DNA from: Sediminibacterium sp. KACHI17
Lineage (GTDB): Bacteria > Bacteroidota > Bacteroidia > Chitinophagales > Chitinophagaceae
Direction: 5' to 3'
Assembly: GCF_040362915.1 (NCBI RefSeq)
Contig: NZ_AP029612.1
Span: 1,054,001 to 1,118,000, forward strand
Length of the DNA stretch: 64,000 bases
A model generated the notes under the pieces. The model did not search any database and was not told where the DNA came from. It saw only the letters and a program-made list of their open reading frames with translations. Shown piece after piece: positions 3,020 to 28,475 of the stretch; the stretch's first letter is position 1, and each line of letters starts with the position of its first letter. The position numbers were made by a program, and so were the translations under genes.

Positions 3020-3598
3020 TTAAGCTTGTATGCGTTCTAACAATTGCACGACCCTGCTCACAGGTAATCCCATCACATTGTAGAAATCTCCTTGGATGGA
3101 ATGAATCCCTACTACACCGATCCATTCCTGGATGGCATAAGCACCGGCTTTATCATAAGGCTGGTATTTATCAACATAGAAATGGATCTGTTCTGCAGTC
3201 AAAGGATGAAACACGACCTCTGTAATATCCGAGAACGCATGTTCTTCTACTCCATTCATCACCACCACTCCTGTGATGACACGATGTGTTTGTCCGGATA
3301 AACGTTGCAGAATCTGAATGGCGTCCTCCCTATCCACCGGTTTGCCGATCACTTCATCATTCAATACCACAATGGTATCAGCTGCCAATATCCAACGCTG
3401 ATCTTCTGCCGACAACTGTTCACGAATGACTTTCGCTTTATTACGTGCAATATGAACAGGCACTTCTTCTATGGCCATGTTTGCAGGAAAAGATTCATCC
3501 GTTGCTTGCACAATCACTTCAAAAGAAATTTCAGCCCACTCAAGAAGCATTTTTCTGCGGGGGGATTGGGAGGCGAGGATGATGGGGGATTGGGGCAT
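3020..3598 (-). CDS. maf: Maf family nucleoside triphosphate pyrophosphatase
   Basis: House-cleaning pyrophosphatase that hydrolyses non-canonical or pyrimidine NTPs to NMP plus PPi (the dTTP/UTP type is most likely). The family signature IILASQSPRR occurs at residues 6-15, with LAADTIVVL and the GKPVDREDA segment following; 192 residues is the normal length. The start is odd: the ATG and first five codons (M-P-Q-S-P) are written in the same C-rich words as the repeat block upstream (3600-3660), so this N-terminus may have been shaped by that array. No start codon fits better. Confidence 0.93.
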   Translation of the reverse strand: MPQSPIILASQSPRRKMLLEWAEISFEVIVQATDESFPANMAIEEVPVHIARNKAKVIREQLSAEDQRWILAADTIVVLNDEVIGKPVDREDAIQILQRLSGQTHRVITGVVVMNGVEEHAFSDITEVVFHPLTAEQIHFYVDKYQPYDKAGAYAIQEWIGVVGIHSIQGDFYNVMGLPVSRVVQLLERIQA

Positions 3599-3599
3599 T

Positions 3600-3797
3600 G
3601 GGGGATCGGGTTATTGGGTTTTGGGTGCTGGGTGCTGGGTGCTAGGTACTGGGTACTGGGGTTATATTTTTTTTATTTTTTCTATCTGCCATGGACTATA
3701 GCCCATCGCCTATAAACTATTTGCTATGACCTATTTGCCATGAACCATGGACCATGGACTATGGACTATGGACTATGGACCATCAACCATCTCCCCC
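3600..3797. repeat. two-vocabulary repeat block between ubiA-like and maf genes
   Basis: The left part, 3600-3660, contains plus-strand RGGTRCT words (GGGTGCT three times, then AGGTACT, GGGTACT). The right part, 3682-3793, reads on the minus strand, from four bases past the TGA stop of the UbiA gene, as 16 consecutive heptads of the form NNNATRG (TCCATAG, TCCATGG, CAAATAG, GCGATGG and so on) without a break in register. A T/A-rich spacer (3661-3681) separates the two. This is the longest uninterrupted ATRG array in the window. Confidence 0.92.
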
Positions 3798-4730
3798 TCA
3801 GTCGTACAAGCGAAAGAACACCATCGACAGGATGCCTGTTAGCATGACGAATTTTATGATTGTGCTGAGGCGGTGGAAATCGGCGGGGGTGTGTGATTTG
3901 AATAGTCGCGTCAAGATCCAGATCAGGGGTGCAATGATGGCGATGAAACAATATAAAGCACTATGCCACCATCCCATGGGTAATACGTAGAACTGTAAGA
4001 TAACGAGTGCTGCGATCAATACTACTAACCATACTGCTACAAATAATTTCGCTGCATTGACGCCCCATACGATCGGCAAAGTTCTACACTCGTATTTTCT
4101 ATCACCTTCTATATCTTCCATGTCTTTCACCACTTCTCGGATGAGTGAGATCACAAATGCAAAAGAAGCATAGAGCATGGTCAGTCTGAAGAAACGCACT
4201 TCTGCATGTCCGACAGACAGTAGTTGTTTGATCTGTAATGGTTGTTTGGAAAAGAAAAGTATCAATAGTACCCAGGCTGTCAACAATGATATGACTACAT
4301 TCCCCACCAATAATTGCTTTTTGAAATTGGTGGAATAAAACCAGAGTAATAAAATGCTTCCCATATTCGCCAATACGAGATGCCAGTACAATGAAACAGG
4401 CAATGCATATACGGTGAAGAATAATCCCAGCATACTTAACAGCATATGCCAGAAGATGACCCATCGTCTGCTGATGATGGTATTCACCACTACTTTATTC
4501 GGCTTGTTGACCTGATCAATATTGAGATCAAAATAATCATTGATGATATTTCCTGCAGCTGCGATACAAACAGAAGCGATGACTATGAACCAGAATTGCT
4601 GTCTGTGCTCGGGTTCATCCGGACCATAAATGCGTTCATAGATACAGTACTCAAACAATAATTGCGTGAGTATGATGAATACCATATTGGGCCATCGGAT
4701 GAGTCGTAAAAATGCAGCGAGTATTTTCAA
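3798..4730 (-). CDS. UbiA family prenyltransferase (geranylgeranylglycerol-phosphate geranylgeranyltransferase-like)
   Basis: Integral membrane prenyltransferase of 310 residues with about eight to nine membrane segments. Two Asp-rich motifs for the Mg-prenyl diphosphate are visible: NDYFDLNID near residue 65 and KDMEDIEGD near residue 203. Bacteroidota homologues are often labelled geranylgeranylglycerol-phosphate geranylgeranyltransferase, but the acceptor cannot be read from sequence; quinone or other lipid acceptors are possible. The start is a TTG at 4730, preferred because it keeps the LIRWPN segment usual at the family N-terminus; the first in-frame ATG lies 15 codons inside. The KdsC-like gene ends 47 bases upstream on the same strand. 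Confidence 0.85.
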   Translation of the reverse strand: MKILAAFLRLIRWPNMVFIILTQLLFEYCIYERIYGPDEPEHRQQFWFIVIASVCIAAAGNIINDYFDLNIDQVNKPNKVVVNTIISRRWVIFWHMLLSMLGLFFTVYALPVSLYWHLVLANMGSILLLWFYSTNFKKQLLVGNVVISLLTAWVLLILFFSKQPLQIKQLLSVGHAEVRFFRLTMLYASFAFVISLIREVVKDMEDIEGDRKYECRTLPIVWGVNAAKLFVAVWLVVLIAALVILQFYVLPMGWWHSALYCFIAIIAPLIWILTRLFKSHTPADFHRLSTIIKFVMLTGILSMVFFRLYD

Positions 4731-5293: not shown

Positions 5294-5338
5294 GAATTAT
5301 TGGGATTTGGATCTTCGTTACTAAAGGCTACTCTCTAT

Positions 5339-5565
5339 TTACTTTTTTGTCTTGACACAAAAAAGTAACAAAAAAAGTCAAGGCTCTAGAAAAAAAGCTA
5401 CCCTTCGACAAGCTCAGGGTTTCTTCGTTGCGCTACAATGGATGAAGTCTAAAACCAAGCTTTTGTTATAAATGTAACGAATCTGCACTTCATCTGTGGT
5501 ACTAAGCCAAGCATCATCCATTGCTTAACGCTTCATTGCGTAAATTTCTTAACGCTTTTTTTCTA
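5339..5565. repeat. intergenic composite of inverted repeats (384-bp gene-free stretch)
   Basis: The gap from 5294 to 5677 has no credible gene. It holds a perfect 12-base inverted repeat (TTACTTTTTTGT at 5339-5350 and its complement at 5357-5368) overlapped by CTTGAC/GTCAAG (5351-5356 and 5377-5382); a near-palindrome CCCTTCGACAAGCTCAGGG at 5401-5419, a phrase I know to recur in many bacterial genomes; and a 10-base inverted pair CAATGGATGA/TCATCCATTG at 5436-5445 and 5514-5523. These look like remnants of dispersed non-coding elements. Their mobility cannot be judged from one copy. Confidence 0.6.
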
Positions 5566-5629
5566 AGGCCGAAAACGTAAACAATTTGTAATAACCTATA
5601 TTCTGTTTTCTAGATTACATGGAGTACCC

Positions 5630-5984: not shown

Positions 5985-6130
5985 TTGATAACTTTTTTGT
6001 TCCTGGGCCACGGGGCCCCGTCCCTGTTTCCGGGCTGCATTGGCCTCTGATCAGATCCGCTTCGCGAGCTCTGATCTGTCTTCGCTACGCTCGACACCGA
6101 CCCCAATGAGGCCCGTCCACAGGGACTGAT
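5985..6130. repeat. GC-rich degenerate palindromic element between fdx and iscX
   Basis: A GC-rich island in otherwise A/T-rich intergenic DNA. It carries GTCCCTGT at 6020-6027 and its complement at 6119-6126, CATTGG at 6038-6043 with CCAATG at 6103-6108, a GGGGCCCC palindrome near 6012-6019, and internal GATCAGATC/GATCTG words. The whole can fold as an imperfect hairpin of about 110 bases. No reading frame is convincing. It resembles a REP-like dispersed element, but only one copy is seen. Confidence 0.5.
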
Positions 6131-6151
6131 TAAGAATGATCATTTTTATCC

Positions 6152-6214
6152 CGCCTCAGCACTCACTACTCACTACTCACTATTCACAATTGACCATTCA
6201 CCATTCACTACTCA
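6152..6214 (-). repeat. nine-unit heptad array at the end of fdx
   Basis: Read on the minus strand from the base after the fdx TAG stop, the sequence is nine 7-base words in register: TGAGTAG, TGAATGG (twice), TCAATTG, TGAATAG, TGAGTAG (twice), TGAGTGC, TGAGGCG. The stop codon itself completes the word GGAGTAG, so the register runs into the gene. The same vocabulary (TGAATGG, TGAATAG) reappears after purC at 27228. Confidence 0.9.
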
Positions 6215-6550
6215 CTACTCCCCCAAAAACTGCGTCTGATCCGGCAAAGTCACTTCAACTTCACCTGATCCATCTTGCAAAACACACTGACATCCTAATC
6301 TGGAATTCAGTCGCGGGTTAATGGCTCGATCGATGAAATCTTCTTCTTTATCACTCAACTCTTCTAAATGTTCCATCCCCTTTTCTACATATAGGTGACA
6401 GGTACTGCAAGCACATACGGCTCCACAGTTATGATGTAATTCGATCCCATTATCCAGACAAACTTCCAATAAACTTTGATCAGGTTCAATACCTGTTAAA
6501 GTAACGGGCTCCAGTCCTTTCTGTTCAAATTTTACCTTAATAGTGTACAT
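6215..6550 (-). CDS. fdx: Isc-type [2Fe-2S] ferredoxin
   Basis: Adrenodoxin-type ferredoxin of 111 residues. With the ATG at 6550 as start, the cluster ligands fall at Cys42, Cys48, Cys51 and Cys87, exactly the numbering of E. coli Fdx, in the motif NCGAVCACSTCH plus GCQC. It supplies electrons for Fe-S cluster assembly. A longer frame opens at 6583, but that start lies upstream of a perfect TAnnTTTG promoter box (6570-6577), so 6550 is preferred. iscX follows downstream on the same strand. The final codons and stop pass directly into a heptad array. Confidence 0.95.
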   Translation of the reverse strand: MYTIKVKFEQKGLEPVTLTGIEPDQSLLEVCLDNGIELHHNCGAVCACSTCHLYVEKGMEHLEELSDKEEDFIDRAINPRLNSRLGCQCVLQDGSGEVEVTLPDQTQFLGE

Positions 6551-8648: not shown

Positions 8649-11210
8649 ATGGCAAAGAATTTATTGATCGTTGAGTCTCCGGCAAAGGCCAAAACCATTG
8701 AAAAAATCCTCGGATCTGATTTCGAGGTAAAAAGCTGTTATGGTCATATCCGGGATCTGGAAAAGGATGATATGGGTATTGATGTCAACAATCAATACCA
8801 ACCCCGCTACATTGTACCTGAGGATAAAGAACGTGTGGTAAAGGAATTGCGTCAACTGGCCAAAAAAGCAGATGAAGTATGGTTGGCATCGGATGAGGAC
8901 CGTGAAGGAGAAAGTATCAGCTGGCACCTGGCTGAAGTATTAGGCCTTGACCCTAAAACCACTAAACGAATTGTATTCCATGAGATCACTGCCCCTGCCA
9001 TCAAAAAAGCAGTGGCGCAACCTCGTCTCATCAATATGGACCTGGTGAATGCACAACAGGCCCGCAGAATTCTGGACAGATTGGTAGGTTTTGAATTGAG
9101 TCCGGTATTATGGCGTAAGATCGGTATGCAGCGTAGTCTCAGTGCCGGTCGTGTACAGAGTGTGGCGGTGAGATTGATCGTTGAACGGGAAAGAGAGATC
9201 AATCATTTTGTTCCGGAGAGTAGTTATAAAATTGAAGCGCTTTTTGCTGCGAAAGACATCAACCAGCGTGATGTGGTATTCAAGGCAGATGGTCCATCTA
9301 AGATCAGCACCCAACAAACAGCATCTGATTTTCTGAAGAGCTGTAAGCATGCAGATTATAAAGTCATTGATGTTACCGTTAAGCCGGCAAAACGCACACC
9401 TGCAGCTCCTTTCACCACTTCTACCCTGCAACAGGAAGCTTCCCGTAAACTAGGGTATGGTGTGAGTAAGACCATGTTGCTGGCACAGAAACTGTATGAA
9501 AGCGGTAAGATCACTTATATGCGTACAGACAGTATCAACTTGAGTGATACGGCAATGGCTGATATCAGAAAAGAAGTGGAAAGCAGTTATGGTCAGGATT
9601 ATTATCAGCCGCGTAAATACAAAAACAAAAATGAGAGTGCGCAGGAAGCTCACGAAGCCATCCGCCCTACTTATATGAATAACAGAACGGTGGCTGATGA
9701 AGATACACGCAGACTCTACGAACTCATCTGGCGCAGAACCATCGCTTCTCAAATGAGCGATGCTGAATTCGAAAAAACCGTTGCTAAAATTTCCATCTCT
9801 ACCAATAATGATACATTAAGTGCTACCGGTGAAGTGATGAAATTTGATGGCTTCCTGAAAGTATACCTCGAAGGGAAAGATGATGAAGATGAAGATGATA
9901 CAGAAGGCATCCTTCCTCCATTGGCGGCCGGACAAACACTCAACTTCCGTGAGATGACAGCTACTGAAAAGTTTACCCGTCCTGCACCACGTTATACGGA
10001 AGCTTCTTTGGTGAAGAAACTGGAAGAACTGGGTATTGGTCGTCCTTCTACCTATGCACCTACCATTTCTACCATCATTAAAAGAAACTATGTAGAGAAG
10101 CGTGATAAAGAAGGTGTGAAGAGAGAAGTGAATGTATTGCGTCTTACACAGCAACAGGAATTAGAAAAAGAAATCCTGACGGAGAATACAGGTGCTGAAA
10201 AAGGAAAACTCTTCCCTACCGATCTGGGTATGGTAGTAACAGATTTCCTGAAGCAACATTTCGGTAAAGTGATGGATTTTGGCTTTACTGCCCGTATTGA
10301 ACAAGAGTTTGATGAGATCGCTGCCGGCAAAACACGCTGGAGCAGCATGATCGATGAATTTTATAAACCTTTCCACGAAAACATTGAGCATACCCTTGAG
10401 AATGCAGAAAGAGCCAAAGGAGAAAGAGAATTGGGTGTGGATGTAGAGAGTGGTAAGAAAGTAATTGCCAGAATGGGCCGTTACGGTCCGATGGTACAGA
10501 TCGGCAATGCGGAAGATGAAGAAAAGCCTCGCTTCGCTAAACTGAAAGCCAATCAAAGCATTGAGACCATTACCTATGAAGAGGCGATGGAACTGTTCTC
10601 TTTGCCGCGTGTATTGGGTATGTACGAAGACCAGGAATTATCGGTGAATGTCGGACGTTTTGGTCCATATATAAAATTGGGTGATCAATTCATCTCGATT
10701 CCTAAAGGTGAAGATCTGCATACCATTGAACTGGAACGTGCCATTGAATTGCTCAAAGAAAAGCAACAAGCAGATGCCCCTGTTGCCTACTATAATGAAT
10801 TGCCTGTTACCAAAGGCAAAGGCCGTTTTGGTCCATTCATTAAATGGAATGATATGTTCATCAACATTCCAAGGGCTTATGATTTTGACAATCTTACACA
10901 GGAAAATATCAATGAGCTGATCGAGAAGAAAATGGAGAAAGAAGCCAATCGCTTCATTCAACAATGGCCTGCGGAAAAGATCAGCATAGAAAATGGTCGT
11001 TGGGGTCCTTTCATTCGTTTCAATAAAAAGATGTTGAAAATGGGCCGTAAAGCCAACGGAGAAAAATACACTGCCGAAGAGCTTGCCACCATTGAACTAG
11101 ACCCCATCAAACAAATGATCGAAGCCCAGGTGCCAAATGCCTTTGCGAAGAAAGCAGTAAAGAAAGCAGCGAAGAAGGCGGGGAAGAAGGCTGTGGCGAA
11201 GAAGAAGTAG
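8649..11210 (+). CDS. topA: DNA topoisomerase I
   Basis: Type IA topoisomerase of 853 residues that relaxes negative supercoils. The Toprim metal motif DEDREGE starts at Asp82 (Asp82, Asp84, Glu86), and the active-site tyrosine is Tyr290 in ITYMRTDS. The C-terminal part has no Cys4 zinc fingers; instead it shows repeated GRxGP(Y/F)I blocks (for example GRYGPMVQIG, GRFGPYIKLG, GRFGPFIKW, GRWGPFIRF), the Toprim C-terminal repeat type. It ends in a lysine-rich tail of about 25 residues that may contact DNA or RNA polymerase. The TAG stop merges with an octad array. Confidence 0.97.
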   Translation: MAKNLLIVESPAKAKTIEKILGSDFEVKSCYGHIRDLEKDDMGIDVNNQYQPRYIVPEDKERVVKELRQLAKKADEVWLASDEDREGESISWHLAEVLGLDPKTTKRIVFHEITAPAIKKAVAQPRLINMDLVNAQQARRILDRLVGFELSPVLWRKIGMQRSLSAGRVQSVAVRLIVEREREINHFVPESSYKIEALFAAKDINQRDVVFKADGPSKISTQQTASDFLKSCKHADYKVIDVTVKPAKRTPAAPFTTSTLQQEASRKLGYGVSKTMLLAQKLYESGKITYMRTDSINLSDTAMADIRKEVESSYGQDYYQPRKYKNKNESAQEAHEAIRPTYMNNRTVADEDTRRLYELIWRRTIASQMSDAEFEKTVAKISISTNNDTLSATGEVMKFDGFLKVYLEGKDDEDEDDTEGILPPLAAGQTLNFREMTATEKFTRPAPRYTEASLVKKLEELGIGRPSTYAPTISTIIKRNYVEKRDKEGVKREVNVLRLTQQQELEKEILTENTGAEKGKLFPTDLGMVVTDFLKQHFGKVMDFGFTARIEQEFDEIAAGKTRWSSMIDEFYKPFHENIEHTLENAERAKGERELGVDVESGKKVIARMGRYGPMVQIGNAEDEEKPRFAKLKANQSIETITYEEAMELFSLPRVLGMYEDQELSVNVGRFGPYIKLGDQFISIPKGEDLHTIELERAIELLKEKQQADAPVAYYNELPVTKGKGRFGPFIKWNDMFINIPRAYDFDNLTQENINELIEKKMEKEANRFIQQWPAEKISIENGRWGPFIRFNKKMLKMGRKANGEKYTAEELATIELDPIKQMIEAQVPNAFAKKAVKKAAKKAGKKAVAKKK

Positions 11211-11413
11211 GTTATCGGGTAATCGGGTTATCGGGTAATCAGGTTATTGGGTTATTGGGTAATTGGGTATTGGGGTGAGATGAATTTTCTTTTTGTTAGT
11301 ACTAAAAAAATTGCGGGATACATTAATAATGTACCCCGCAATTTTTTTACCCGATTACCTGATTACCCAATAACCTGATTACCCGATAACCTGATTACCC
11401 GATAACCCGATCC
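11209..11413. repeat. giant inverted octad arrays between topA and desaturase genes
   Basis: The left arm (11209-11274) reads rightward as about eight 8-base words, GGTTATCG or GGTAATCR type, beginning with the AG of the topA stop codon. The right arm (11349-11413) has about eight words of the same vocabulary on the minus strand, starting right after the desaturase stop. Because the words share bases, the arms are largely complementary and could fold into a long hairpin or cruciform enclosing the terminator at 11304-11348. Confidence 0.93.
11304..11348. terminator. bidirectional intrinsic terminator between topA and desaturase
   Basis: A 14-base perfect stem (11304-11317 with 11335-11348) with an AAAAAAATTGCGGG arm, plus an inner ACATT/AATGT pairing in the loop. 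A-tract and T-tract on either side make it work in both directions for the convergent genes. It sits at the centre of the octad inverted repeat, so both arrays would be transcribed upstream of it. Confidence 0.9.
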
Positions 11414-11416
11414 CCC

Positions 11417-12715: not shown

Positions 12716-13588
12716 ATGCAGGAAACCAAGGAAATACACGCATTATTCACCTTAATAGACGACCCGGATGAGGAAGTCTATTCTACCATCTCTGAGAAAA
12801 TCGTTGAATATGGTAAGGGCATTATCCCTAATCTGGAGCATTTATGGGAAACCACACCCAGTGAAGATGTTCAGGAAAGAATTGAAATGATCATTCATAA
12901 ACTTCATTTCACAGATCTGTGTAATGATTTTACAGAATGGAAGAATAGTGCATATCATGATCTTCTTTTTGGTGCTTTACTGGTTTCTAAATTTCAATAT
13001 CCTGATCTGCAAACCAGTCCGGTTTTAGAAGAGATCGAAAAGATCAGAAGAAATATCTGGCTTGAACTGAATAGCTTTCTCACACCTCTTGAACAAGCCA
13101 ATGTACTTTCCAGCATCCTATACAACTATTGCAATTTGAAAGGATCGGAGATCAATTATGAAAAACCGGATGAATTCTTTTTGCATAAAGTTTTAGAAAG
13201 CAAAAAAGGTAATACACTTTCCAATGGATTGATCTATCAGATCCTTTGTGATCAGTTAGATATCAATGCGCGGATCATCAATATTCCCAAGCAATGTATC
13301 ATTGCTTTTTTCCATTCTGATTTTGATCCGGCCATGCATCCGGGACATCCACAGGAAAAAATTCATTTCTATGTAGATGGCACTACCGGACAAGCATTTT
13401 CACATGCAGATATTGAAAGTTATTTCAAGCGCATATCTGTTCCTCCTGTTGCATCTTATTTCAAACCTCAATCCCACAAGCGACTCATTCAGCAACTCAT
13501 CGAAGAAGTCGCCAAATGTTTTGACAGCCCTGTGAATGCATACAAACATGCTGAGCTGCTGCAGTTGGCGGGGTTGTTGGAGGAATAG
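12716..13588 (+). CDS. transglutaminase-like (SirB1-type) family protein
   Basis: A 290-residue cytoplasmic protein that I place in the transglutaminase-like SirB1/Transglut_core2 family. An N-terminal HEAT-like or helical lead (about residues 1-60) is followed by a core with EQANVLSSILY, then KKGNTLSNGLIYQILC, a segment where the family carries its presumed catalytic cysteine, and HFYVDGTTGQAFSH with a candidate His-Asp pair. Bacterial members are not known to crosslink proteins and most are probably non-enzymatic or peptidase-like. The TAG stop opens directly into seven perfect GTGCTGG heptads. Confidence 0.75.
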   Translation: MQETKEIHALFTLIDDPDEEVYSTISEKIVEYGKGIIPNLEHLWETTPSEDVQERIEMIIHKLHFTDLCNDFTEWKNSAYHDLLFGALLVSKFQYPDLQTSPVLEEIEKIRRNIWLELNSFLTPLEQANVLSSILYNYCNLKGSEINYEKPDEFFLHKVLESKKGNTLSNGLIYQILCDQLDINARIINIPKQCIIAFFHSDFDPAMHPGHPQEKIHFYVDGTTGQAFSHADIESYFKRISVPPVASYFKPQSHKRLIQQLIEEVAKCFDSPVNAYKHAELLQLAGLLEE

Positions 13589-13784
13589 GTGCTGGGTGCT
13601 GGGTGCTGGGTGCTGGGTGCTGGGTGCTGGGTGCTGGGTAAAAGAAAAGAGAGGAGTACATGATTTATTGTACTGCTCTCTTTTTTTATTTCGGATACAG
13701 AAAAAATTTTCCCCGCATCAAAAAGACATTTACATGACCCAATACCCGACACCTAGTACCTAGCACCCAGCACCCAACACCCAA
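13587..13784. repeat. facing RGGTRCT heptad arrays with seven perfect copies on the left
   Basis: The left array, 13589-13637, is seven identical copies of GTGCTGG directly after the TAG stop. The right array, 13733-13784, reads on the minus strand as about seven more degenerate words (TTGGGTG, CTGGGTG, CTAGGTA, TCGGGTA and similar) beginning at the TGA stop of the second OsmC gene. Between them lies an intrinsic terminator. On the coding strand the left array fits the G-quadruplex pattern of at least four GGG runs with 4-base loops. Confidence 0.95.
13645..13687 (+). terminator. intrinsic terminator after the transglutaminase-like gene
   Basis: A stem of about 16 base pairs with one G-G mismatch (13645-13660 with 13669-13684), a TGATTTAT loop and a run of seven T at 13681-13687. 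It lies downstream of the heptad array, which would therefore be part of the transcript. The A-rich left flank could allow weak function in the other direction. Confidence 0.85.
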
Positions 13785-14195
13785 TCACCCCAACACCGCT
13801 TCCAAACTAATCGCCATATTATACGCTTTGCTGACGGGGCAGTTGGCTTTGGCGTCGGCGGCGCATTCTTGGAATTTTTCGGAAGAGATACCGGGTACTT
13901 TTGCAGTGAGTTGTAAATGTGAAGAAGTGATCACTCCGTCTTCTAATGTAATGGTACATTTTGTTTCAAGTGATTCCGGTGTGAAGCCGGCAGCACCTAA
14001 TACAAAACTTAACTTCATCGTGAAACATCCGGCATGTGCTGCTGCCATGAGTTCTTCAGGATTGGTTCCTACACCTTCTGCAAATCGGGAGTTGAAAGAA
14101 TATTGTGTCTTGTTCAATGTGGTACTTTGTGTGGTCAAATGGCCATTGCCTTCTTTACCTGAACCATTCCACACGGCTGTTGCTTGACGTTTCAT
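13785..14195 (-). CDS. OsmC family peroxiredoxin
   Basis: OsmC proper type, 136 residues, with the peroxidatic Cys57 in AAHAGCFTM and the second Cys119 in NCPVSKAY. It reduces organic hydroperoxides in the cytoplasm using a dithiol donor. GTNPEELMAAAHAGC is the classic OsmC helix lead. The last codons (Val-Leu-Gly, then TGA) are written in the GTG TTG GGG words of the adjoining heptad array, so array and coding sequence overlap. It is divergent from csaA with 35 bases between starts. Confidence 0.92.
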   Translation of the reverse strand: MKRQATAVWNGSGKEGNGHLTTQSTTLNKTQYSFNSRFAEGVGTNPEELMAAAHAGCFTMKLSFVLGAAGFTPESLETKCTITLEDGVITSSHLQLTAKVPGISSEKFQECAADAKANCPVSKAYNMAISLEAVLG

Positions 14196-14624: not shown

Positions 14625-15122
14625 ATGAGCGAACTCTATTATACTTATTATGAAAGTCCGGTAGGCTTGCTCAAGATTGGCGGCACTGATCAATACATCG
14701 GCGAACTGAGCTTTGTGGATAACCCTGATCAGTTGACTTATGGAGAACCCGGTATCAGCGAGATCATGCATCAATGCACCGAAGAGCTCATCGAATTTTT
14801 TCATGGTAGTAGAAAACAGTTTACCGTTCCTATTCATCAGGAAGGCACTGAGTTTCAAAAAAGAGTCTGGAGTGAATTAACAGAGATCCCTTATGGAAAA
14901 ACGATCAGCTATATGGACATGGCCAAACGCCTTGGCGACCCTAAAGTCATCAGAGCAGCCGCCAGTGCCAATGGCAGAAACAATATCGCGATCATCGTTC
15001 CCTGTCATCGTGTGATCGGCAGCGACCGCTCCCTTATCGGCTATTCCGGTGGCATGTGGCGTAAGAAATGGCTACTGCAACATGAGTTTAAGATTACGCA
15101 TGGGGTGCAGACTTTGTTTTAG
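14625..15122 (+). CDS. ogt: methylated-DNA-protein-cysteine methyltransferase
   Basis: Suicide repair protein that transfers alkyl groups from O6-alkylguanine to its own cysteine. With the ATG at 14625 it has 165 residues, the usual length, and the acceptor Cys127 lies in IVPCHRVIGSD. The helix-turn-helix lead TEIPYGKTISYMDMAKRLG and the recognition stretch ANGRNN are intact. An in-frame start at 14580 would add 15 residues unlike the family. The TAG stop merges with a 16-unit octad array. Upstream partner is csaA. Confidence 0.95.
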   Translation: MSELYYTYYESPVGLLKIGGTDQYIGELSFVDNPDQLTYGEPGISEIMHQCTEELIEFFHGSRKQFTVPIHQEGTEFQKRVWSELTEIPYGKTISYMDMAKRLGDPKVIRAAASANGRNNIAIIVPCHRVIGSDRSLIGYSGGMWRKKWLLQHEFKITHGVQTLF

Positions 15123-15367
15123 GTGATCGGGGTATCGGGTGATCGGGGTATCGGGTGATCGGGTGATCAGGGTATCGGGTGATCAGGAAATCGGGTGATC
15201 GGGTGATCAGGGTATCGGGTGATCAGGAAATCGGGTGATTGGGTAATTGGGGTGAGATGTTTGTTGACAGTTGACGGTTGATATGAAATAGTCTAATTAC
15301 CTCTTTTCTTTCCATGGACCATGGACTATGGACCATCGACTATGGACCATGAACCATACGCCATCCG
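15121..15367. repeat. octad array (ogt side) facing heptad array (cdd side)
   Basis: From 15123 to 15250 there are 16 consecutive 8-base words: GTGATCGG, GGTATCGG, GTGATCAG, GAAATCGG and close variants. Units 5-9 (15155-15194) are repeated exactly as units 10-14 (15195-15234), a 40-base higher-order duplication. On the other side, 15312-15367 reads on the minus strand from the cdd stop as eight NNNATRG heptads (CGGATGG, CGTATGG, TTCATGG, TCCATAG and so on), the vocabulary seen after the UbiA gene. In addition GATATGAAATAG at 15280-15291 is an inverted copy of the last codons of cdd. Confidence 0.95.
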
Positions 15368-15853
15368 CTATTTCATATCCTCACTTGTAAAACTTAGCGG
15401 TAACAGGCTTCCTGCCTGGGGTATTACGTAGACATTTCCTTCGAGGCCGGCGAGTATGAGGCGGATTGGATTTTTTACGCGCAGCTCATATTCATGTAAA
15501 CTTTGTCTACAGATACCGCAAGGTGATATCGGGTGATTACTCTTGCCTTTTGTATTATCATAGCTAATGGCAATCGATTCAATGGCAACTCCGGGATGTA
15601 AGGTTGCTGCAGCAGATAATAGTACCCTCTCTGCACAAATGCCTACCGGAAAGCTGGCATTCTCCTGATTGGTGCCTATTACCAATGCCCCATTGGCCAA
15701 TTTCGCAACGGCACCTACTTTAAAGGCAGAATAAGGTGCATATGCCTGACTCGTTACTTCTCTTGCATGATTCAACAATGTTGCATCTTCCTGTTTCAAC
15801 GCACTTGCATCAGCATACACTTCATAATCTAGTTTGTACTGTTGATGATTCAT
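15368..15853 (-). CDS. cdd: cytidine deaminase
   Basis: Zinc-dependent deaminase that turns cytidine and deoxycytidine into uridine forms in pyrimidine salvage. The zinc site is Cys73-Ala-Glu75 (GICAERVLL) with the catalytic glutamate, and Cys112 and Cys115 in PCGICRQ. 161 residues fits the tetrameric class with a short N-terminal extension. It follows lepB on the same strand, but a terminator at 15871-15902 separates them. Its stop TAG forms the end of a GAAATAG word that continues in register into the downstream heptad array. Confidence 0.95.
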   Translation of the reverse strand: MNHQQYKLDYEVYADASALKQEDATLLNHAREVTSQAYAPYSAFKVGAVAKLANGALVIGTNQENASFPVGICAERVLLSAAATLHPGVAIESIAISYDNTKGKSNHPISPCGICRQSLHEYELRVKNPIRLILAGLEGNVYVIPQAGSLLPLSFTSEDMK

Positions 15854-15902: not shown

Positions 15903-15958
15903 CTATTTGGTAAGGAAAGTTAGTAAAATTTCAGAAAAAAATATGTTAAAGAGGAAAG

Positions 15959-16049
15959 AAATGAGAAATAAGGAATAAGAAATAAGAAATCAGAAAGTGA
16001 GAATCACATACTCATTTCATATTTCTTATTCCTTATTTCTTGTTTCTTA
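15959..16049. repeat. TAAGAAA heptad inverted repeat after lepB
   Basis: Directly after the lepB TAA stop the minus strand reads TAAGAAA, CAAGAAA, TAAGGAA, TAAGAAA, TATGAAA. The same words occur on the plus strand at 15963-15990. The 26-base arms (15965-15990 and 16014-16039) match at 24 positions with a 23-base loop. This is a fourth vocabulary, A-rich rather than G-rich, with the same period of seven. Confidence 0.9.
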
Positions 16050-17558
16050 TTATCTAATGCTCTTCATCAATCTCTTCCATCTCGGACCTTTATCCCAACT
16101 GAACCAGATGAGGGATGCTTTTCCTACGATATGTGTTTCGGGTACAAAACCCCAGTAACGACTATCCTGGCTGCGATGGCGATTATCACCCATCATCCAG
16201 TAGTAATTATATTTTGTAACGTAGGTATTGGTTTTTTGTCCGTTGATGAAGAACTGTCCGTCTTTCTCTTCTAAAGTATTGCCTTCATAAGTTGCGATCA
16301 GTCTTCGATACAAAGAGATATTTTGTTGGCTCAATAACAATGTATCTCCTTTTGCAGGTACACGTAATGGACCATAATTATCAATACTCCAAGGATAATT
16401 CGCTTCATCTGCAGGGAAAGTCATGCCGATATAATTCTCTGTATAAGGTGAATCCGATACGAAATTGGGTAACTTCCTAAGCTTCGCTAATTCATCTGGT
16501 GTAACATTGAATTTAAAGCTGCTATCACTCAGCATTTCCAGTTGTTGCTTCGTATCATCGAGATCAATGCCCAATTCTTCTTTTAAGAAGTCTGGATCGT
16601 AAGGTTTTTTATTGGTCACAACAACATATTCTGTTTGTGAGCCACCCGGCACCATGGCAGGTTCTCCATTCACATATAACTGTCCGTTACGGATATGCAA
16701 TACATCTCCACCTACCGCTACGCAACGTTTGATGTAGTTATCTGTTTTATCCATCGGATGAACGATGATCGGATATTCAGGACTGGCAAACAGTTCTTGT
16801 CTGTTGCCTTTGAATGTAAATCGTAACACATCATAGTAGGTTACTTTACTTCCGAACTCAGGTCTATTGATGATGGTATCTCCGGCCGGGAAATTGAAGA
16901 CCACGACATCATTTCTTTTCACTTCGGTGAATGCAGGTAAACGCTTATAGGGTATCTGTATCCATTTCAGGTAAGAAGGTGTGGTTTGAGAAAATGGCAT
17001 TGTGTTATGAACAAAAGGAAAAGACAATGGCGTTTGTGGAATTCTTGCACCATAACTCATTTTATTCACGAAGAGAAAATCATTCACCAATAAGGTCTTC
17101 TCCATACTTTCAGTAGGAATCACATACGCTTCAAAAACAAAGGTACGTATGATGGTTGCGGCAACCACTGCAAATACACCTGCATCCACCCACTCTCTCG
17201 AACCAGGTTTTTTATAGGCTTTGAATGCTTCTGCACCATGCCATTTTTCTTCTTTGGAAAAACCGAGATAAGGAAAATAAATGAAAGGCAACAGTACAGT
17301 AGCTGTATGATGAATAAGATTGAATCGTTTGAAATGCATCACGAAGATGATGGTGATCCAAATTGTGATGAATTGTCCGGCGATCGGAATCAATTGCAAC
17401 CAGAACCAGTATTTACGAATATGACATTTCTCAACGATCTGCCAGGTGTTATAAAAGGGGATCAAGGCTTTCCAGGGTTCAATACCTGCTTTTTTGAACA
17501 TGCCCCACATTCCCAGATGCCAACCAATGATGCCAACGATGAATAGAGTTAAACCCAT
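16050..17558 (-). CDS. lepB: signal peptidase I with N-terminal membrane extension
   Basis: Membrane serine-lysine peptidase that removes Sec signal peptides. From the ATG at 17558 it has 502 residues: three or four membrane helices and a DUF5684-like segment (1-100), the anchoring helix near 125-142, catalytic Ser151 in PTESMEKTL, catalytic Lys277 in [11 protein letters not shown], and the C-terminal box [17 protein letters not shown]. It is far longer than E. coli LepB (324), mainly from the N-terminal helices and an insertion after the lysine box, which is usual in Bacteroidota. The longer TTG-started frame (17612) would begin upstream of the promoter box at 17579-17586 and is rejected. 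Confidence 0.94.
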
Positions 17559-18579: not shown

Positions 18580-18736
18580 TCGGGGGTGCTGGGTGCTGGG
18601 TGCTGGGTGCTGGGTGCTGGGTGCTGGGTAAAAACTTTTGACAGATGTACCTTATTGTACTTATACTTATTTTTCCAACATCCTAAATACGATATTTCAC
18701 ATCTGCTATAAGCTATTTCCCATTCGCTATCCCCTA
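18580..18736. repeat. facing heptad arrays: GGGTGCT (left) and NNNATRG (right)
   Basis: The left array, 18584-18625, is six perfect GGGTGCT copies starting four bases after the regulator's TGA stop, with an extra GGG on both sides; it fits a G-quadruplex pattern on the coding strand. The right array, 18685-18733, reads on the minus strand from the sigma54-type regulator's TAA TAG as GGGATAG, CGAATGG, GAAATAG, CTTATAG, CAGATGT, GAAATAT, CGTATTT. The two sides use different vocabularies, so they cannot pair along their length. Confidence 0.92.
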
Positions 18737-19888
18737 TTACACATACGCACTCACATCCGCTGCGGTGATCTCTTTGCCGGATAGGATCACGAGTCTTTCT
18801 ACCACATTTCTGAGTTCACGGATATTACCTGTCCAGTCATGATTTTTGAGTGTATCGATCGCTTTTTTCTCGATTCCTTTTTTGGCTTGTCCATACTCCG
18901 TTGCAATATCATCCAGGAATTTATCTACGAGCAAGGGGATATCGTCTCTTCTTTCATTCAGTGATGGTACATGGATAAGGATGACGCCTAAACGATGATA
19001 CAGGTCTAATCGAAAATTCTTTTCTTCTACTTCTTTCAACAGGTCTTTATTGGTTGCAGCTACTACACGTACATCAACAGCAATCTCTTTATCACCTCCG
19101 ACTCTGGTGATCTTTCCTTCCTGTAAAGCCCTTAATACTTTGGCTTGTGCACTCAGACTCATGTCGCCTATTTCATCCAGGAACAAGGTGCCACCACTCG
19201 CCTGTTCAAACTTACCAATGCGTTGTTTGATCGCAGATGTAAAAGAACCTTTTTCATGACCAAACAATTCACTCTCGATCAACTCTCCGGGAATCGCGGC
19301 ACAGTTGACTTCTACCAATGGACCTGATGCACGATTGCTTTTTTCATGAAGCCATCTTGCTACCAATTCCTTACCGCTTCCATTACCGCCAGTAACCAAT
19401 ACACGGGCATCAGTAGGTGCTACTTTATCAATGGTTTCTTTGATACGTACAATCGCTTCACTCTCACCAATGATCTCCTGCACTTTAGATACTTTACGCT
19501 TGAGTACTTTGGTCTCCTGTACCAGCGTGGTCTTATCCATCGCATTGCGAATCGTGATCAACAGTCGATTCAGGTCTGGTGGTTTTGAAATATAATCGAA
19601 AGCACCTTTTTTAACCGCATCTACCGCTGTTTCAATATTTCCATGTCCACTGATGATGATCACCGGTGTATCTGATCCTGTTTCCATGACTTTTTGAAGG
19701 AACTCAATACCATCCAGTTTGGGCATTTTGATGTCGCATAAAACCACATCAAAAGAACCTGCCTGAAATTTTTTCAACCCTTCTTCGCCATCAGCTGCTT
19801 CTTCCACTTTAAAGCCTTCATTGGAAAGAATATCCTTTAATACGTTACGAATAGCTCTTTCATCATCTATGATCAGAATGGTAGGCAT
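18737..19888 (-). CDS. sigma54-type (NtrC-family) response regulator lacking a Fis DNA-binding domain
   Basis: A 383-residue two-domain protein: receiver (phospho-acceptor Asp52 in VLCDIKMP, Lys102 near ISKPPD) and AAA+ domain (Walker A GGNGSGKE at 167-174, Walker B LFLDEIGD, arginine-rich sensor further on). The sigma54-contact loop reads GSFTSA (214-219) instead of GAFTGA, keeping the Phe-Thr core. The protein stops about 20 residues after the AAA+ domain (AADVSAYV), so the usual C-terminal Fis helix-turn-helix is missing. It may act without specific enhancer binding or through a partner. A TonB receptor gene lies 33 bases upstream on the same strand, so the pair may be co-transcribed. Confidence 0.9.
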   Translation of the reverse strand: MPTILIIDDERAIRNVLKDILSNEGFKVEEAADGEEGLKKFQAGSFDVVLCDIKMPKLDGIEFLQKVMETGSDTPVIIISGHGNIETAVDAVKKGAFDYISKPPDLNRLLITIRNAMDKTTLVQETKVLKRKVSKVQEIIGESEAIVRIKETIDKVAPTDARVLVTGGNGSGKELVARWLHEKSNRASGPLVEVNCAAIPGELIESELFGHEKGSFTSAIKQRIGKFEQASGGTLFLDEIGDMSLSAQAKVLRALQEGKITRVGGDKEIAVDVRVVAATNKDLLKEVEEKNFRLDLYHRLGVILIHVPSLNERRDDIPLLVDKFLDDIATEYGQAKKGIEKKAIDTLKNHDWTGNIRELRNVVERLVILSGKEITAADVSAYV

Positions 19889-26294: not shown

Positions 26295-27227
26295 ATGAAG
26301 AGCCTCCAGTTCCCTCAGCAGACAAATGTTTATCATGGAAAAGTAAGAGATGTATACACCATTGGTCAGGATTGGCTGGTAATGGTAGCCAGTAATCGCA
26401 TATCTGCTTTTGATGTAATATTACCCAAACCCATCCCTTATAAAGGGCAGGTCTTAAATCAAATTGCGGCTTTTATGCTGGAGGCTACGAAGGATATCTG
26501 CCCGAACTGGCTCGTTGATGTACCCGCCGCCAATGTATCCATCGGCAAAAAATGCACCCCTTATAAAATCGAGATGGTAGTAAGAGGCAATGTTGTAGGA
26601 CATGCCTGGCGCACGTACAGCTCCGGTCAAAGAACACTTTGCGGAGTTACCATGCCTGAAGGGTTGAAAGAAAATGATTTTTTCCCATCACCTATTATCA
26701 CCCCTTCCACCAAAGCAGCGGAGGGACATGATGAAGACATCTCCAAAGAAGAGATCATTCGCCAGGGATTGGTGAGTGCTGCAGACTGGGAGGTACTCGA
26801 ATCATATGCCTTACAATTGTTTGCTCGAGGCAAAGAAATTGCTGCACGTCGAGGATTGATACTCGCTGACACGAAATATGAATTCGGCAAGATCGGTGAT
26901 ACCATTTATTTAATGGATGAAGTACATACACCGGATTCTTCACGCTACTTCTATGCAGATGGATTTGAACAAAGACAAGCCAGCGGCGAAAAACAAAAAC
27001 AACTGAGCAAGGAATTTGTAAGAGAATGGCTGATCGCCAATAATTTCATGGGCAAAGAAGGACAATCTGTTCCTGAAATGTCTGATGAATGGATTGACAC
27101 CATCAGCAAAAGATATATAGAACTATTCGAAAAAGTAACCGGTAAAACCTTTATCCCCGAACAACCCTCTGATGATGAAATCGTGACCTTGGTGTCAGAG
27201 GCATTGAATAAGATCGGGGCAAAGTAG
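26295..27227 (+). CDS. purC: phosphoribosylaminoimidazole-succinocarboxamide synthase
   Basis: SAICAR synthase of purine biosynthesis: ligates aspartate to CAIR with ATP. 310 residues, the longer class of PurC. Visible motifs: KVRDVYTIG near residues 17-25, [16 protein letters not shown], the aspartate/CAIR-site stretch [19 protein letters not shown] and the ADTKYEFG and [11 protein letters not shown] segments. TAATTTTA at 26283-26290 resembles a -7 box with one mismatch and ends only four bases before the ATG. The stop TAG begins a short heptad array shared with the convergent trhO gene. Confidence 0.97.
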
Positions 27228-27254
27228 TGAATGGTGAATAGTGAATGGTGACTA
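27225..27254. repeat. minimal heptad array filling the purC-trhO gap
   Basis: The whole 24-base space between the two stop codons consists of the heptads TGAATGG, TGAATAG, TGAATGG and the start of a fourth (TGA), in register with the purC stop (AAAGTAG) and ending in the complement of the trhO stop. The vocabulary is the same as after fdx, 21 kb away. Confidence 0.8.
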
Positions 27255-28286: not shown

Positions 28287-28404
28287 AATTTTCAAATTTC
28301 AGCCCCATCTCTTCTCGTTTAAAACGAGCCGAAACAGGATCCATGAACAATGGAACCACTTGCAGGGTGGTCAAAATCGGTGCGAAGATAAGAGGATATT
28401 TCTA

Positions 28405-28475
28405 ATGTCAGATGGCAGATCTCAGATGTAAAATATATCTGACATCTGCCATCTGAGATCTGCCATAAAATTGTA
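28405..28475. repeat. CAGATGG-type heptad inverted repeat after the TPR lipoprotein gene
   Basis: On the minus strand, starting about 14 bases past the TAA stop, the words CAGATCT, CAGATGG, CAGATGT, CAGATAT follow in register after TTTATGG. An inverted copy gives 15-base perfect arms (28414-28428 and 28450-28464). The words fit the NNNATRG class with a fixed CAG start. This is the last array before the repeat-free part of the window. Confidence 0.85.

Follow-up and report, generated by a model that had tools for sequence, protein, structure and literature searches.

Stop-codon-anchored heptad repeats, mostly arms of long hairpins, in intergenic DNA of the Sediminibacterium clade

Results

Intergenic DNA of this genome, which its named relatives place in Sediminibacterium, carries degenerate tandem repeats of period 7 (sometimes 8) that begin at stop codons, the stop codon often being the first unit; the class is found clade-wide. 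Most arrays make up a long hairpin together with a second arm, which is their reverse complement and lies before the next start codon or at a convergent stop. The genome is a single contig of 3.14 Mb. Statistics on period, anchoring, and hairpins were taken from 864 kb (28%) of it, as stretches including the 64,000-nucleotide stretch analyzed here (the window), and genes were called with a simple script using open reading frames and codon usage rather than with a standard gene finder.

The UbiA-Maf junction

The array under study lies in the following context.

3682-3793, minus strand: 16 NNNATRG heptads after UbiA
3798-4730, minus strand: UbiA prenyltransferase gene (Pfam PF01040); its TGA stop (3800-3798) is followed by GGGG and then the array
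3583-3660, plus strand: G-rich octads and GGGTGCT heptads on the far side of the junction, antisense to Maf and reaching into its start
3020-3598, minus strand: Maf gene, its first codons inside the G-rich array

An earlier note on this DNA had described an unbroken series of 16 heptads here, and this is confirmed: 16/16 consecutive heptads fit NNNATRG on the minus strand (CYATNNN on the plus strand). The minus strand is the sense strand of UbiA, and the array sets in four bases past the stop. Nine of the 16 cores are ATAG and seven are ATGG. Column entropies are 1.42, 1.50, and 1.75 over the three free positions and 0, 0, 0.99, and 0 over ATRG; equal entropy across the heptad, the outcome that the earlier note said would speak against its reading, is rejected at P <= 5e-5 under a null that spreads the 30 non-consensus letters evenly over the heptad. 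The predicted RNA fold of the array is weak (z -2.3), and the far side of the junction belongs to a different, G-rich family.

The gap between UbiA and Maf is only 3-35 nt in 29 sampled congeners, which we count as a sign of recent insertion in favor of the explanation preferred below. Among named relatives, Desfum bin_7, Gen4, and SW22112_bin_1 have ATRG arrays in the gap, Con.Enr.2020-3 has a perfect (TTGACCA)12, and S. goheungense has a perfect (TTTTTGA)14, both of these perfect runs reaching the Maf ATG; in S. roseum, the gap is longer and has no clear array. The UbiA array appears to be a weakly paired member of the class that lengthened a tight junction.

Three further observations concern this junction. 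Because the first Maf codons (MPQSP..., 3583-3598) fall within the G-rich array, the Maf N terminus has seemingly been changed by repeat growth. About 170 nt past the UbiA stop of SW22112_bin_1, the array is interrupted by sequence unlike that of other species, containing a new reading frame (MARVDQLKLTSTERQ...) and looking like a mobile element. The pure (TTGACCA)12 and (TTTTTGA)14 runs before Maf could vary in length and alter its expression.

Other arrays in the window

Similar arrays occur at many other gene ends; hairpins listed with both arms are given without a strand.

1563-1708: one arm of GGTACTA/GGTGCTG heptads and the other its reverse complement, in a gap bounded by two convergent stops
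6155-6217, minus strand: TGARTRG heptads after the ferredoxin gene, the first unit being the gene's TAG stop
11208-11274, plus strand: GGTNATCG octads from the topA TAG stop; partner arm at 11347-11415
11347-11415, minus strand: partner octad arm after a convergent desaturase-like gene; the two arms enclose a terminator-like hairpin
13586-13639, plus strand: (GGTGCTG)7, starting at a TAG stop
13737-13787, minus strand: GGGTGCT-class arm after a convergent OsmC-like gene
15120-15251, plus strand: GGTGATCG octads from the TAG stop of an MGMT-like gene
15312-15370, minus strand: ATRG heptads after cdd, the TAG stop occupying the core slot
15956-16051: AAGAAAT heptad hairpin after lepB, both arms
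18584-18629, plus strand: (GGGTGCT)6 after a MerR-like gene
18693-18739, minus strand: degenerate ATRG heptads after a response-regulator gene
27225-27251, plus strand: TGAATRG heptads occupying all of the gap that separates the convergent stops of purC and a rhodanese-like gene
28395-28470: CAGATGT-class heptad hairpin after a TPR-like gene

The core had been said to recur after fdx, cdd, the response regulator, and purC; ATRG is indeed present at the last three, whereas fdx carries the close variant TGARTRG. Positions 1-30000 of the window gave no Rfam match at gathering score. Judged by sequence, G-tracts are present in the GGGTGCT and GGGTNATC arrays, but ATRG units have no regular GGG and so lack the G-tracts of a G-quadruplex. 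The window also holds repeats of other kinds. Those at 5326-5585 and 5985-6148 are dispersed, MITE-like or REP-like rather than heptads, and match many places in related genomes at 73-90%; a palindromic repeat at 8314-8428 matches many loci of relatives, on both strands, at about 80-90%.

Period and anchoring at stop codons

Runs of five ATRG heptads number 175 genome-wide versus 12 for the reversed pattern, and the UbiA array proved to be one of a genome-wide set after stop codons. Over the 864 kb, intergenic coverage at a strict threshold was 3516 nt for period 7 and 650 nt for period 8; it was zero for period 6 and periods 9-13, and period 5 did not exceed the shuffled expectation. Several heptad families coexist (NNNATRG, TGARTRG, GGTGCTG/GGTACTA, CTNCAAG, CAGATGT, AAATAAG, AAAAGTC, GATTTTT, and TTGACAG), together with octads such as GGTNATCG.

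Of all genes, 6.0% have a strict period-7 window setting in at the stop itself (offset 0) and 0.7% one that abuts the start; at stops, period 8 is weak and the remaining periods are close to 0. Where tandem gaps leave 60 nt or more to spare, 27 arrays directly adjoin the stop versus 2.1 expected under uniform placement, the companion count for the start being five; the 2.1 is rough because undetected second arms count as free space, but the asymmetry between stop and start stands. Among gaps of at least 60 nt, arrays occupy 70/242 (29%) of tandem, 21/58 (36%) of convergent, and 6/86 (7%) of divergent ones.

The stop codon is often itself a repeat unit, its likeness to the triplets at +7 and +14 being 0.49 and 0.48, versus 0.33 and 0.32 in other genes. 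Genes with arrays end in TAG in 37/92 cases and the remaining genes in 87/577 (odds ratio 3.8, p = 1.4e-7). When close species are compared, 38 of the 68 array-bearing 3' ends have kept the same stop codon versus 69 of the 83 others (p = 3e-4).

Hairpin architecture

The best downstream inverted-repeat score has a median of 15.5 for genes with arrays, 9.8 for those without, and 7.3 for shuffled sequence; where inverted repeats are strong, the median distance from the stop's first base to the start of arm 1 is 9 nt. Median RNA fold z-scores are -4.3 with arrays and -1.9 without. The arms complement each other (0.86) better than successive units resemble one another (0.72). A strong hairpin (score >=14) is missing at 38% of array 3' ends, and only 7 of the 53 hairpins have a T-run behind them, as an intrinsic terminator would. 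Where both partners of a pair changed between species, the result was Watson-Crick in 224/317 cases versus 296/985 with slid partners; these counts are not independent, as species pairs, the two directions of comparison, and the two members of convergent gene pairs all enter them.

Conservation of the ATRG core

In gapless blocks of orthologous ATRG arrays, changes per site were 0.22, 0.14, and 0.28 at the three N positions, 0.02 at A, 0 at T, 0.22 at R, and 0.04 at G, the R toggling between A and G from species to species. Overall, 9 of 432 A/T/G core sites changed versus 123 of 576 N/R sites (P = 5e-12 with the core rate expected at half the free rate, allowing for block choice; P = 1.6e-5 in blocks of at least 85% identity), with the reservation that species pairs are not independent and that aligning non-orthologous units within an array would look alike. 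NARG arrays showed no core constraint in the same comparison.

Of 144 patterns (median 3%), WRG ranks highest, 34% of stop-anchored arrays containing it five times in phase; in-phase TRG reaches 24% on the sense strand versus 7% for its complement CYA. A constant core with freely varying flanks had been proposed; the core is constant in the UbiA array, but the NNN positions are skewed genome-wide (TCC 28%, ACC 15%, second base C in 70%). When all period-7 arrays were tested blind to motif, the columns were only modestly uneven (p<0.05 in 12% of windows), and equal entropy is thus rejected only weakly for arrays at large; the sharp core is therefore a trait of the ATRG family and not of every array.

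Comparison across relatives

Relatives rich in arrays (90-291 ATRG matches) are Gen4, SW22112_bin_1, Desfum bin_7, Con.Enr.2020-3, and S. goheungense; those poor in them (0-1 matches) are S. magnilacihabitans, S. soli, S. roseum, S. ginsengisoli, and S. salmoneum. A separate congener (G023) has 197 matches of the reversed pattern, which are GATA-type heptads, e.g., AAGATAA. Array presence matches this genome at most 3' ends of the three closest species (12+20/36, 18+27/52, and 21+36/63) and at 35/50 in S. goheungense.

Where species encode near-identical proteins, the orthologous 3' ends often carry another heptad family while position, period, and hairpin form are retained, and in close Sediminibacterium such swaps change both hairpin arms together. 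The OsmC/DUF2851 junction, for instance, is built of GGTACTA here, AGCTACT in Gen4, GAGCTNC in SW22112_bin_1, AGCTTGT in Con.Enr.2020-3, and CAGATGT in S. goheungense, across which OsmC is 95-99% identical. Since relatives retain array sites, often with another word, place and shape are more conserved than spelling. The MGMT and cdd stops lie 4 nt apart in S. goheungense, a spacing that we again count as a sign of recent insertion in favor of the preferred explanation. Some palindromes are dispersed, matching further loci in related genomes at 95-100% over 35-41 nt.

In 20-60 kb samples from other families of the order, period-7 intergenic arrays were present in G055, G056, G057, G052, and, weakly, G048, and absent from those of G038, G054, G044, and G040; one array in G057 is of the ATRG type and runs from a TAG stop.

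Candidate generators and permissive factors

A RAYT/Y1 transposase is ruled out as generator, there being no match to PF01797 in this genome. Reverse transcriptase was rejected as well, as none is present in four array-rich close relatives; this genome has one weak match (C1:1206846-1207559, in a 547-aa frame), which those four lack. For the hairpin nuclease SbcD, none of the Sediminibacterium genomes tested gave a match over cutoff, and neither did G055, G056, and G057, which bear arrays; its loss is not the rule as a permissive cause, however, because array-poor congeners likewise gave no such match and SbcD is present in array-bearing G048 and G052. Presence of an RRM protein does not track arrays.

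Discussion

We give about even odds to the explanation that these are heptad-built intergenic hairpins that would arise by slippage and template switching and be kept as 3'-end or intercistronic RNA structures, a reading based on sequence comparison. Replication slippage would multiply a 7-mer, a template switch from one strand of the fold to the other would copy one arm onto its partner, and arrays would be retained where the transcript tolerates, or gains from, a hairpin directly past the stop. This appears the most economical origin, as it would account for the high arm complementarity, the paired changes, and the replacement of both arms at once; hairpins are known to be created and maintained by this process (PMC8794818, on template switching). 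The paired changes could stem from template switching without selection for RNA. As to function, a 3'-end or intercistronic RNA structure is preferred by analogy: the hairpins may act as REP/BIME hairpins do between cistrons, blocking 3' exonucleases and buffering adjacent genes from each other. Counted against the explanation are the ATRG core constraint, which hairpin form alone does not account for, the weak fold of the UbiA array, and the 38% of array 3' ends without a strong hairpin.

The strongest rival, which we regard as possible, is that slippage heptads are neutral or selfish simple-sequence repeats that fill tolerated non-coding space, are halted by coding sequence at the stop, and do nothing. 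Fast turnover and family swapping, the homogeneous (TTGACCA)12 and (TTTTTGA)14 runs, and stop codons that swap freely along with the array are all as expected of such repeats, and heptads are the commonest of the 5-11 nt bacterial repeats, for which slippage has been proposed (Mrazek 2007, as cited in PMC4679880). They would not be expected, however, to adjoin stops directly in 27 cases (2.1 expected) and starts in only five, to have arms that pair better than their units repeat, or to hold a core that resists change across species. To the earlier note, a conserved core with free flanks looked like a recognition motif rather than simple slippage. The core is indeed kept beyond what slippage and random mutation would leave, within the array and between species, but a motif as its cause is not supported in that form, and as a general rule it is disfavored because the family is often replaced while position, period, and hairpin are kept; the idea survives mainly for TRG-bearing families. 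In the version we consider doubtful, the sense arm would offer WRG (mostly UAG/UGG) every 7 nt to an RNA- or single-strand-binding protein. Core retention and the excess of in-phase WRG and of sense-strand TRG fit this, and the genome encodes a single RRM protein; yet that gene is equally present in array-less genomes, TRG-less families (CAGATGT, AAATAAG, and GATTTTT) occupy the same sites, and NARG arrays lack the constraint. Slightly less probable still is a 3'-end code used throughout the genome, in which a UAG/UGG (or AAG/AGG) ladder with a 7-nt step, phased from the stop, would bind a small RNA-binding protein, one per heptad, and the hairpin partner would open or close the ladder.

Transcription terminators are unlikely: the hairpins sit at 3' ends and are mostly missing from divergent gaps, but so few are followed by a T-run, separate terminator-like hairpins lie between the arms at 11.3 and 13.7 kb, and arrays occupy apparent operon junctions such as UbiA-Maf. 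Mobile REP/RAYT-type palindromes inserted past stops, which we think quite improbable, would explain the dispersed copies, the 3' location, and the insertion into tight junctions; against them stand the missing Y1/RAYT transposase and many unrelated heptad families without fixed consensus or ends. Backup stop codons in all three frames had been implied by the earlier note. The ATAG cores of the UbiA array do place TAG in each frame, and TAG stops are enriched at arrays, but 7/16 cores are ATGG, and the claim that translation past the stop would be halted quickly fails as a general rule, neighboring GGGTGCT arrays having few or no stop codons. Because the sense arms of several families (GGGTGCT, CTNCAAG, CAGATGT) have no regular stops and ATGG makes up half of the ATRG cores, this reading is very improbable indeed.

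The closest described repeats are the G-rich intergenic heptads GGGAATC of Xanthomonas and GGGGA(T/C)T of Nostoc (PMC4692102; Rehm 2015), whose placement is nearly the same, and the TAACTGA direct repeats of Beggiatoaceae, Cyanobacteria, and some Bacteroidetes (PMC4679880). Like the former, the present arrays are tandem 7-nt intergenic units near stops on the sense strand and rare between divergent genes; in both, heptads lie within 50 bp of the stop, some overlapping it, are antisense near starts, include some inverted pairs, and vary greatly in length and sequence among close relatives. Xanthomonas and Nostoc are, however, described as having one G-quadruplex-capable motif per genome, whereas several unrelated families coexist here, most of which (including ATRG) lack G-quadruplex G-tracts; their arms make long hairpins, and they take one another's place at orthologous sites. 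TAACTGA repeats are likewise intergenic heptads with stops in three frames and a sporadic spread that includes Bacteroidetes, but they have one exact motif, mostly directly upstream of start codons, whereas the arrays here are degenerate families of other units past stops. With REP/BIME they share extragenic hairpins past stop codons, also between operon genes, but they have tandem heptad arms of many families, no fixed 20-40 bp palindrome consensus with a GTAG tag, no common end, and no RAYT in the genome. Long simple sequence repeats of the 5-11 nt class, as far as citations of Mrazek 2007 in PMC4679880 and PMC4692102 describe them, are also intergenic and dominated by heptads; the arrays here differ from that description in being degenerate with a conserved core, in having a hairpin partner, and in their anchoring at stops. 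No paper on Sediminibacterium arrays was found in the literature searched, whose scope took in few subscription journals. As far as checked, what is new is the several families per genome, the long hairpins, family replacement at fixed sites, and stops absorbed into the repeat.

Heptameric intergenic repeats have long been noted in bacteria. In Sediminibacterium, which are freshwater bacteria, hundreds of genes have loose heptad repeats that begin at their stop codons and usually fold into a hairpin, and across the clade neighboring repeats rewrite the stop codons. Because the same 3' ends carry different heptads within the same hairpin architecture, the clade is a natural experiment in which position, shape, and spelling can be separated, and it offers a bacterial case of RNA hairpins that may be built and kept up by template switching genome-wide.
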